In this document: positions 7,554 through 19,751 of the stretch, in pieces
Layout of the letters: each line of letters starts with the position of its first letter
Position numbering within the stretch: the stretch's first letter is position 1
Source: Sulfurimicrobium sp.
Lineage (GTDB): Bacteria; Pseudomonadota; Gammaproteobacteria; Burkholderiales; Sulfuricellaceae
NCBI GenBank assembly: GCA_030690835.1
Contig: JAUYFW010000315.1
Coordinates: 1-38,735, forward strand
Length of the DNA stretch: 38,735 nt
Reading direction: 5' to 3'
Position numbers and translations under genes: made by a program
The notes under the pieces: model-generated
Told to the model about the DNA's origin: nothing
The model's input: the letters and a program-made list of their open reading frames with translations, nothing else
Database searches by the model: none

Positions 7554-7629
<76 letters not shown>

Positions 7630-7635
7630 GCATTC

Positions 7636-7663
7636 AAGGGAAAGCGCAAAGCTTTCCCTTTTT
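7636..7663 (+). terminator. Rho-independent terminator after tRNA-Gly
   Basis: aagggaaagc-gcaaa-gctttccctt followed by ttt. Confidence 0.7.
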
Positions 7664-7690
7664 AGTTCCAGCAGTTTGCCAGGTTACACT

Positions 7691-7764
7691 GGCGGGGTAG
7701 CAAAGAGGTTATGCAGCGGCCTGCAAAGCCGTTTAGAGCGGTTCGATTCCGCTCCCCGCCTCCA
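7691..7764 (+). tRNA. tRNA-Cys(GCA)
   Basis: ggcgggg/ccccgcc acceptor stem, anticodon loop ctgcaaa, encoded CCA. Confidence 0.95.
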
Positions 7765-7772
7765 AATTCCCA

Positions 7773-7859
7773 GCCCGGGTGGCGAAATTGGTAGACGCAA
7801 CGGACTTAAAATCCGTCCTCCGCAAGGAAGTACCGGTTCGATTCCGGTCTCGGGCACCA
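7773..7859 (+). tRNA. tRNA-Leu(TAA)
   Basis: gcccggg/ctcgggc acceptor stem, anticodon loop cttaaaa, long variable arm, encoded CCA. Confidence 0.95.
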
Positions 7860-16476: not shown

Positions 16477-17919
16477 ATGATGCTTAAATCACTCGTTCAT
16501 GGATGCGGCCTGCTAGCGCTGATGGCTGGAGCGCTGGTTCAGGCTGCGCCCAGAGGGGAAATAGTCAGTGCCCTCAAGGATCAGCAGGAAGTGGCGGTCA
16601 CCATCTATAACGAGAATCTTGCCTTGGTGAAGGATCAGCGCCGGGTCGCCTTGGACAGGGGAACAAACCGTCTGGCTTGGCGTGACGTGAGCGCGCGTAT
16701 CATGCCGGAAACCGCCTTGCTGCGCAGCCTTGGCAGTGGCGATGGCGTGACGCTGCTGGAGCAGAATTTCGATTTCGATTTGCTTACGCCGCAGAAGCTG
16801 CTGGACAAATATGTCGGCCAGAACGTCACGGTCATCAAGACCAACCCCGCTACCGGGGCTGAAAGCAGCGAGGTCGCCACGGTCCTGGGCAGCAATGGCG
16901 GCGTGGTGCTGAAATTCGCCGACCGCATTGAAACCGGCATGCCGGGCCGCATTGCCTTTAAAGCCGTGCCCGATAACCTGCGTGACCGGCCGACGCTGGT
17001 GATTACGCTGCACAGTCCCGCCGCGGGCGTCCAGCCGATGGAATTGAGCTACCTCACGGGTGGCTTGTCGTGGCGCGCCGATTATGTTGCGGAATTGAGC
17101 CCCAAGGACGATAGCCTTGACCTCAACGGCTGGGTTACGCTTACCAATGTCAGCGGCGGCAGTTATCCCGACGCCAAATTGCAGTTGGTGGCCGGCGACA
17201 TCAACCGGGTGCGGCGCGAGATGGATTTTGCCCAGGAGGGGCGGGTGATGAAGGCGATGCCCATGGCGGCGCCCGCGATGGCCGAGGAAGGACTGATCGA
17301 GTATCACCTCTATACCTTGGAGCGGCCCACCACCATTGCCGAGCAGCAGACCAAGCAGGTCGCCTTGCTTTCCGCCAGCCATATTCCAACCAGTAAGGAA
17401 CTGCTGCTGCAGGGGCGCGATTATTACTATCGCAGCAGTTACGGCGATCTGGGGCAAAAAATGAAGGTCGGCGTGTATGTCGAATTCGAGAACAAGGGAG
17501 GGGGGTTGGGCGTGCCGTTGCCCAAAGGCGTGATCCGGGTTTATAAAAAGGATTCGCAGGGTAACGCCCAGTTCGTCGGGGAAGACCGCATCGACCATAC
17601 GCCGCGTAACGAGAAAGTGCGCCTGAAACTGGGCGAAGCGTTCGATGTCACGGCTGACAAGAAGCAGACCGATTTTCAGAAGCTTGGCGGCAGTGGGCGC
17701 TACAATTCTATTTACGAGAGCGCCTACCAGGTCGAACTGAAGAACGCCAAGGACGAAGCGGTCACGGTAAAGGTGATGGAGCCCGTGCCTGGCGACTGGG
17801 AAATTCTGAGCGAAAGCCAGCCGCACAAGAAGCAAGCCAGCAATACCGTGGTGTGGCGTGTGACTGTTCCGGCGGGTGGCAGGGCCATGTTGAATTACCG
17901 GGTGAAAGTGCGGCTTTAG
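16477..17919 (+). CDS. DUF4139 domain-containing exported protein
   Basis: Signal peptide, VTIYNENLALVKDQR start and LTGGLSWRADYVAEL as in DUF4139 proteins. Confidence 0.8.
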   Translation: MMLKSLVHGCGLLALMAGALVQAAPRGEIVSALKDQQEVAVTIYNENLALVKDQRRVALDRGTNRLAWRDVSARIMPETALLRSLGSGDGVTLLEQNFDFDLLTPQKLLDKYVGQNVTVIKTNPATGAESSEVATVLGSNGGVVLKFADRIETGMPGRIAFKAVPDNLRDRPTLVITLHSPAAGVQPMELSYLTGGLSWRADYVAELSPKDDSLDLNGWVTLTNVSGGSYPDAKLQLVAGDINRVRREMDFAQEGRVMKAMPMAAPAMAEEGLIEYHLYTLERPTTIAEQQTKQVALLSASHIPTSKELLLQGRDYYYRSSYGDLGQKMKVGVYVEFENKGGGLGVPLPKGVIRVYKKDSQGNAQFVGEDRIDHTPRNEKVRLKLGEAFDVTADKKQTDFQKLGGSGRYNSIYESAYQVELKNAKDEAVTVKVMEPVPGDWEILSESQPHKKQASNTVVWRVTVPAGGRAMLNYRVKVRL

Positions 17920-18115
17920 GGCCAATACTGTTTAATTAAGCAACTAGCCCATGTAGGTTGGGTTAGCGGCTTTATCGCGTAACCCAACAAACCCAAACAC
18001 TCAACACAGGTGTTTAGAAGGTAGATTGGGTCTGTTGGGTTACGGCGCCAAAAGCCGCGCCTAACCCAACCTACATGTCGGAATCTCCCTTAAATAAACA
18101 GTATTGGCTTTAGGG
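17914..18115. mobile_element. MITE-like element (17922-18107) with flanking CTTTAGGG direct repeats
   Basis: TIRs ccaatactgtttaattaag (17922-17940) and cttaaataaacagtattgg (18089-18107), 18/19 complementary. Direct repeats ctttaggg at 17914-17921 and 18108-18115 (11-bp ggctttagggc if TIR overlap is counted). Inner arms atgtaggttgggttag...aacccaaca / tgttgggtta...ctaacccaacctacat. Confidence 0.8.
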
Positions 18116-18119
18116 CTCG

Positions 18120-19751
18120 TTATTTGCAATGGTTGATCAGGCTGTTAGTCGAGGCGTCGAAGGCGGTTGACGATTGTTGTCGGGCCAACTCGGGCAGGAT
18201 CTTGCTGGCCAACTGCTTGCCCAGCTCCACCCCCCATTGGTCGAACGAGTTGAGGTTCCAGATAATTCCCTGGACGAAAACCTTGTGTTCATACAGGGCG
18301 ATCAGCGCGCCCAGCGTGTGTGGCGTGAGTTTGCGGAACAGCAGGGTGTTGGTGGGCTTGTTGCCGGGAAAAACCTTGTGCGGCAGCAGGCGTTCCAGCG
18401 CTGCGCCACTCATGCCGGCTTGCTCCAGTTCCGCCCGTGCTTCCGCCTCGTTCTTGCCCTGCATCAGCGCCTGCGTCTGGGCAAAGCAATTGGCAAGCAG
18501 GATGCGGTGGTGGTCGCCGATGGGGTTGAGGCTCTCGACGGGCGCAAGGAAATCCGCGGGGATCAGCTTGGTGCCCTGGTGGATGAGCTGGTAGAAGGCG
18601 TGCTGGCCGTTGGTTCCGGGTTCTCCCCAGATTACCGCTCCGGTCTGGTAATCGACCGCTTCGCCCTCGCGGGAAATGCCTTTGCCGTTGCTTTCCATGT
18701 CCAGTTGCTGCAGGTAGGCCGGCAGGCGGTGCAGATACTGGTCGTAGGGCAGCACGACATGGCTCTGGGCGTCGAGGAAGTTGTTGTACCACACTCCCAG
18801 CAGGCCGAGGATGACTGGCATGTTGTTTTCGAAAGCGCTGGTACGGAAGTGTTCATCCATTTCGAACGCGCCGTCGAGCAGCGCCTCGAAGTGATTCATG
18901 CCGAGGTAGAGCGCGATCGACAGTCCAATCGCCGACCATAGCGAATAACGTCCGCCTACCCAGTCCCAGAATTCGAACATATTTGCGGTATCGATGCCGA
19001 ATTTGGCGACTTCGGCGGCGTTGGTGGAGACGGCGACGAAGTGCCTGGCGATGGCTGCTTCATCCTGTGCCGCGCGCAACAACCACTCGCGCGCGGTGCG
19101 CGCATTGGTCAGCGTTTCCTGTGTGGTAAAGGTTTTGGACGCGACGACAAACAAGGTGGATTCAGGATTGAGGCGTTTGAGCGTTTCCGCGATATGGGTG
19201 CCATCCACGTTGGAGACGAAATGTACGTTGAGGCCGGATTTTTCATAATGCCTGAGGGCTTCGGTGACCATCACCGGCCCGAGATCCGAGCCGCCAATGC
19301 CGATGTTGACGATATCGGTAATCGTTTTGCCACTGTATCCCAGCCATGTGCCGTTGCGTACCCGCTCGGAGAATTCGCGCATGTGTGCCAGCACGCGTTT
19401 CACATCGGGCATGACATCCTTGCCATCAAGCAGCAGCGGTTTGTTGGAGCGGTTGCGCAGGGCGGTGTGCAGCACGGCGCGTCCCTCAGTGAAGTTGATG
19501 GCTTCGCCCGCGAACATTTTTTCAATCCAGTCGGCCAGCTTTACTTCCCGGGCTAACTGCATCAGGAGCGAAAGTGTTTCCGCCGTAATGAGATTTTTCG
19601 AATAATCGAGCAGTATTTCCCCCTGTTTGAGGGAGAAGCGGGCAAAGCGCTGCTCGTCGTCACGAAACAGGTCGCGCAGATGTTGCCGCGAGAGGCTTTT
19701 CTGGTGCGCTTGAAGAGCTTGCCAGGAAGGGGAACGGGTGAGCTTGGACAT
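18120..19751 (-). CDS. pgi: Glucose-6-phosphate isomerase
   Basis: [54 protein letters not shown]. Confidence 0.97.

Follow-up and report, generated by a model that had tools for sequence, protein, structure and literature searches.

A probable IS4-type MITE carrying a REPIN between the convergent DUF4139 and pgi genes of a Sulfurimicrobium genome

We have examined a window of 38,735 nucleotides (contig JAUYFW010000315.1, positions 1 to 38,735) from a Sulfurimicrobium sp. genome, here G000, which is a metagenome bin of 374 contigs with an estimated contamination of 6.4%. In this window a gene for a DUF4139 protein (PF13598; 16477..17919, + strand) converges on pgi, which encodes glucose-6-phosphate isomerase (PF00342; 18120..19751, − strand), and between the two genes lies an element of 184 bp (17923-18106, + strand). 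The element opens with the terminal inverted repeat CAATACTGTTTAATTAAG (17923..17940, + strand) and closes with CTTAAATAAACAGTATTG (18089..18106, − strand); the repeats are 18 nt long, with 17 of the 18 positions paired and the mismatch at position 13, and perfect 10-bp direct repeats, GCTTTAGGGC / GCTTTAGGGC, flank the whole (17913..17922 and 18107..18116). Inward of the ends follow a left inner arm, CAACTAGCC (17941..17949, + strand), which is common to the copies on contigs C263 and C248 and has a diverged form in G009 (L052), and a right inner arm, TCGGAATCTCC (18078..18088, + strand). The centre, with CAT/ATG borders (17950..18077, + strand), is taken up by a palindrome running from GTAG to CTAC (17953-18074), whose first half (17953..17989, + strand) consists of a GTAG tag and a GTTGGGTTA..TAACCCAAC hairpin and whose second half (18033..18074, − strand) is the inverted counterpart. 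As single-stranded DNA the element reaches a folding energy of −56.5 kcal/mol, whereas its shuffles give −19.2 (z −12.9). No open reading frame for a transposase is present, and with its terminal inverted repeats and its size, which falls within 70-400 bp, it has the make-up of a MITE. The initial annotation, made from the letters alone, had described near-perfect inverted repeats, direct repeats and a probably non-autonomous element without a transposase gene, and in these respects it was right. Elsewhere in the window, three consecutive tRNA genes lie on the + strand at 7554-7856.

The same annotation left the length of the target duplication at 6, 8 or 10 bp. Because other copies with the same ends, and a related IS, have exact 10-bp repeats, the duplication at the window element is fixed at 10 bp, and the base that had been counted as the 19th of the inverted repeat thus belongs to the duplication, as its outer base. 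The lengths of 6 and 8 bp are set aside by the copies on C263 and C218, by three copies in genome G010 and by seven paired IS insertions. With copy ends set at CAATACTG, the C263 copy has the exact duplication GGGTTAAAGA, the inner C218 copy GCTTAAACCC, and the three G010 copies GGAATATCCT, GGGCTAAATA and GGGATTGAGG; altogether, six exact 10-bp pairs were found among MITE copies in G000 and G010, and others, such as those at C248 and at C70 of G008, have one mismatch.

At least seven further copies or remnants with the ends of the window element are present in the same genome. The copies on C370, C263 and C248 are 98-99% alike and lie at unrelated sites, with the duplications GCTTTAGGGC (exact), GGGTTAAAGA (exact) and GGRTTAATCC (one mismatch), respectively. 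An inverted repeat unique in the genome, with no direct repeats around any other copy, would have spoken against the initial annotation; the repeat occurs at about 15 places, and duplications surround other copies. Composites of MITE and REPIN, as we term the central palindrome below, are found in genomes of genera g1, g2 and g3, and the composite thus recurs in three genera, the g3 copy being one-sided. IS4-type copies found without a REPIN carry other hairpins in its place, as on C122, where a different inverted repeat lies inside. We note also a 112-bp IS4-type MITE on C218 (12640-12804; L031, L222) that has the exact duplication GCTTAAACCC, adjoins a REPIN-MITE remnant and, where a REPIN would be expected, contains a hairpin of the GTTCGCCCTGAGCTTGTCGAA type; C148 of G007 (L187) has an element like it. 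A search of plasmids for the element gave no match, and the exact 19-nt end had two matches in a public genome collection, which is near chance expectation for 257 Gb. One of the two, in a bin of Deltaproteobacteria (L029, minus strand of 2167-2185), may be a chance match; a GTCATTCCCGCG hairpin separates this end from an imperfect inverted counterpart about 130 bp away, and there is no duplication.

Once the element and one duplication are removed, the two convergent stop codons lie 6 bp apart, as had been predicted. The DUF4139 stop TAG (17917-17919) lies inside the left copy of the duplication, and the gene therefore retains its own stop; the earlier statement that the duplication re-creates a stop codon was too strong. 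The stop codon of pgi is at 18120-18122. Relatives had been proposed as the place to look for an empty site. The two flanks, joined and used as a query, recovered the corresponding convergent DUF4139-pgi junction in the congener G003, which lacks the element there, at 72% identity, a divergence at which the exact duplication target is unreadable. In G001, G002, G004 and G005 the two genes are about 1.1-1.2 kb apart, with another gene 3' of the DUF4139 gene wherever downstream DNA was read. A copy of the MITE in G014 likewise has a corresponding site without the element, in G013.

We present evidence that the element shares its ends with an IS of the IS4 family in the same genome. This IS ends in the same 12 bases as the window element, CAATACTGTTTA, which are the first 12 bases of its left inverted repeat; past these 12 bases the ends of MITE and IS differ. 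On C40, C119, C267 and C288 the sequence CAATACTGTTTAG is followed by a transposase gene, with both ends present on C288 and left ends only on the other three; in the sister genome G007 there are eleven left ends of this kind, each at the end of a contig or close to it. The transposase of the C288 copy matches Nterm_IS4 (PF13006, E 4.5e-19) and DDE_Tnp_1 (PF01609, E 6e-5, just over the cut-off) and scores 105 of 115 bits, below the cut-off, with the NCBIfam IS4 model; this copy is internally deleted, contig ends truncate the others, and no intact transposase was read. In the C288 open reading frame, YHRRWTVEQSFDELK has exactly the Y(2)R(3)E(6)K spacing of the YREK motif that defines the IS4 family (PMC2266710), and the IS end CAATACTGTTTAGTTTAT fits the -AATR--------WTW pattern listed for subgroup IS4 (Table 1 of PMC2266710). 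A three-fold in-frame repeat around LLTHAAIRR accompanies the internal deletion of the C288 transposase (L109).

The contigs break within the IS, and left and right flanks were therefore paired by the 10-mers adjoining them. Exact 10-mers joined seven IS insertions across contigs, one in G000 (TGTTTAACCC) and six in G007 (GACTTAAGTG, CAGTTAACCT, CGGTTAAAGT, GGGTTAAGAC, GGCTTAAGTC and CCTTTAACCC). Of 28 duplications or single flanks from IS and MITE copies, 27 have T at position 5 and 27 have A at position 6. All but one are centred on TA, most often within a TTAA core, and GCTTTAGGGC of the window fits the pattern. By its ends and the length of its duplications the partner IS matches subgroup IS4, and the early suggestion of an IS4-like mobiliser is supported by the profile matches, the YREK spacing, the 12 shared bases and the TTAA-centred 10-bp duplications. 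In G008 and G010, MITE copies are present, but searches of those genomes gave no close match to the 43-residue N-terminus of the IS. Separately, we note that the REPs contain GGGTTA, a target favoured by this IS, and that at the end of C17 in G007 (L072) an IS4 copy is inserted into a REP hairpin at GGGTTACGGT.

The central palindrome is a repeat in its own right. The initial annotation had noticed a second palindrome inside the element, which is indeed there, and had missed its independence, as it occurs both alone and inside other MITEs. Most of the 61 matches obtained in a genome search with the element cover the inner part only, and at more than a dozen sites in G000 the palindrome stands alone, with unrelated flanks and the constant borders CATGTAGG..CCTACATG. 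In each half the GTAG tag sits at the foot of the GTTGGGTTA/TAACCCAAC hairpin and the two REPs are inverted, an arrangement that reads as a head-to-head dimer of GTAG-tagged REPs, that is, a REPIN. Exact matches to the 13-mer GTAGGTTGGGTTA number 46 in G000, where the reversed control has 0. Several g2 genomes have the 13-mer often and other members of g1 seldom, and the 19 genomes of other families that were searched do not have it. We looked for a cognate RAYT and found none, the Y1 transposase loci of G000 having no such REP nearby. On C78 of G008 (L164, 4349) a RAYT gene is followed, about 100 bp downstream, by half a REPIN, the sole REP remnant seen beside a RAYT; homologues of this RAYT, 78-82% identical, come from genomes in which such REPs are few or absent.

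In this family, REPINs are found between inverted repeats at a rate far above chance expectation; MITE ends account for much of this, and a weaker excess remains without them. An inverted-repeat score computed from both flanks of 64 REPIN copies across the bacterial family had a mean of 8.30, against a maximum of 7.55 in 20000 draws of permuted pairings. When IS4-type, GTAACTACTCAGGTCT-type and orthologous copies were left out, 9 of the remaining 45 scored 9 or more, with 2.1 expected, and the excess in this reduced set also held against control positions close by (p 0.003 by Fisher's test at score 9, p 0.03 by the Mann-Whitney test). A second type of MITE, with the ends GTAACTACTCAGGTCT and 8-bp duplications, has a REPIN in its middle in four copies and other hairpins in the rest, among sites on C2, C64, C161, C259 and C79 of G000 and C232 of G016; its duplications include ATAATCCA at C161 and CCCGGACC at the REPIN-free copy on C79. 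Its ends and length recall, as we presume, those of IS66, and a search for an autonomous partner IS found none. A REPIN also occupies the middle of MITEs with the ends GGTGCGATTCAAACTGATGTGA, which are unrelated to the IS4 type, and one REPIN copy (L140) sits in a third type of end.

Taking together what is observed directly, namely the ends, the duplications, the IS partner, the sister copies, the empty junction and the independence of the REPIN, we propose that the element is very probably a transposase-free MITE that is bounded by the ends of the resident IS4-family IS, is moved in trans and has a REPIN inside. Because ends and target are shared, we infer that the IS4 transposase would act in trans on the terminal CAATACTGTTTA and drive the spread of the element. 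Insertion would take place at TA/TTAA-centred sites, here at GCTTTAGGGC on the DUF4139 stop codon, with duplication of 10 bp. The REPIN, which also exists alone, occupies the middle of the MITE, which it presumably entered rather than having been there from the start, and the composite may now move as one unit, so that the REPIN would gain a second route of spread.

On a quite different account the element is not mobile but is under selection as a 3' hairpin or as a bidirectional terminator of the two convergent genes. This account could appeal to its position and to a very stable fold: as RNA, element and flanks fold at −101.6 kcal/mol (z −11.2). Yet the target duplication, the near-identical copies elsewhere, a terminator scan that finds nothing inside the element and the congener G003, which is without it, make this account very improbable; an inserted element could nevertheless serve as an RNA hairpin after insertion. 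How the REPIN came to lie in the MITE is a separate matter, which concerns the origin of the composite and not the identity of the outer MITE. Tentatively, we consider it possible that REPINs actively insert at the centre of inverted repeats, at the tips of hairpins or cruciforms, with a RAYT-type single-strand transposase as the probable agent and the MITE as one target among several. The flank scores, with an excess that persists without MITE and orthologous copies, and the unrelated MITE ends that enclose REPINs argue in this direction, as does the tree of REPIN cores, in which those within IS4-type ends are spread over more than one clade and the starred branches force at least six changes. 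Although only 15 of its 61 inner branches are well supported and gene conversion between REPINs may have acted, this tree suggests repeated entry or exchange. Against active insertion, the excess outside MITEs is modest, searches of G000 turned up the window's arms only together with a REPIN, and neither the Y1 genes of G000 nor the REP-poor genomes that harbour RAYT homologues point to a cognate enzyme.

The inner arms of several composites, moreover, can be aligned across G000, G008, G014 and G009, which suggests one old composite and favours later exchange of REPIN sequence over entry at the centre. A single ancestral MITE-REPIN composite might accordingly have spread through the family, its solo REPINs being decayed composites that have lost their ends, which is the reading given for QMITE2 of Coxiella (PMC5896051). 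Remnants of ends on some REPIN copies (C95, C80) agree with such decay, but most solo copies are clean, with constant borders and no trace of IS4-type ends, the same REPIN lies inside other types of MITE, and the G010 composites differ in their arms and REPIN subfamily; we think this history somewhat unlikely. Doubtful, in our view, is the wider proposition that REPINs settle preferentially and repeatedly in the middle of MITEs or inverted repeats, including MITEs of unrelated transposase families, and in this way gain a double mobility; if it is true, a REPIN would combine its own single-strand route with cut-and-paste by way of its host MITE.

A MITE with a GTAG REP inside and REP dimers within palindromes are kinds already known. 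QMITE2 of Coxiella burnetii is a MITE of 150-190 bp with terminal inverted repeats, direct repeats of 7-11 nt and a GTAG REP inside; it lies mostly where genes end, at their 3' side, and short copies that consist of the REP alone occur at other sites (PMC5896051). The window element is likewise a MITE with terminal inverted repeats and direct repeats around GTAG REP sequence, with REP-only copies elsewhere; unlike QMITE2 it carries a REP dimer and has TTAA-centred 10-bp duplications, its genome holds an IS4-family partner, and the same REPIN lies in other MITE types. A 2013 study of Anabaena variabilis and Halothiobacillus neapolitanus described longer palindromes with GTAG or CGTC REP dimers at their centre, found none that was free of REPs and did not identify the palindrome (PMC3733652); the layout is the same, whereas here the palindrome would be a pair of IS4-type MITE ends with target duplications. 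Members of subgroup IS4 have ends with -AATR and WTW at positions 14-16, the YREK motif and direct repeats of 10-13 bp (PMC2266710), whereas the window element is without a transposase and has only the terminal 12 bases in common with the resident IS. REPINs are two inverted REPs with GTAG tags, present in many copies (PMC3116915); those described here share this layout and abundance, with the differences that no cognate RAYT is assigned and that MITEs enclose some of the copies.

New here are the identification of an IS4 partner, a target and duplication of settled length, the recurrence in three genera, and evidence for the REPIN as a separate unit that is found in other MITEs too. Two literatures are thereby joined, that on REP dimers in unexplained palindromes and that on MITEs containing REPs, and it can now be tested whether REPINs choose hairpins to insert into and whether MITEs carry them along. 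The arrangement may further account for the finding that some 'truncated MITEs' consist of a plain REP.
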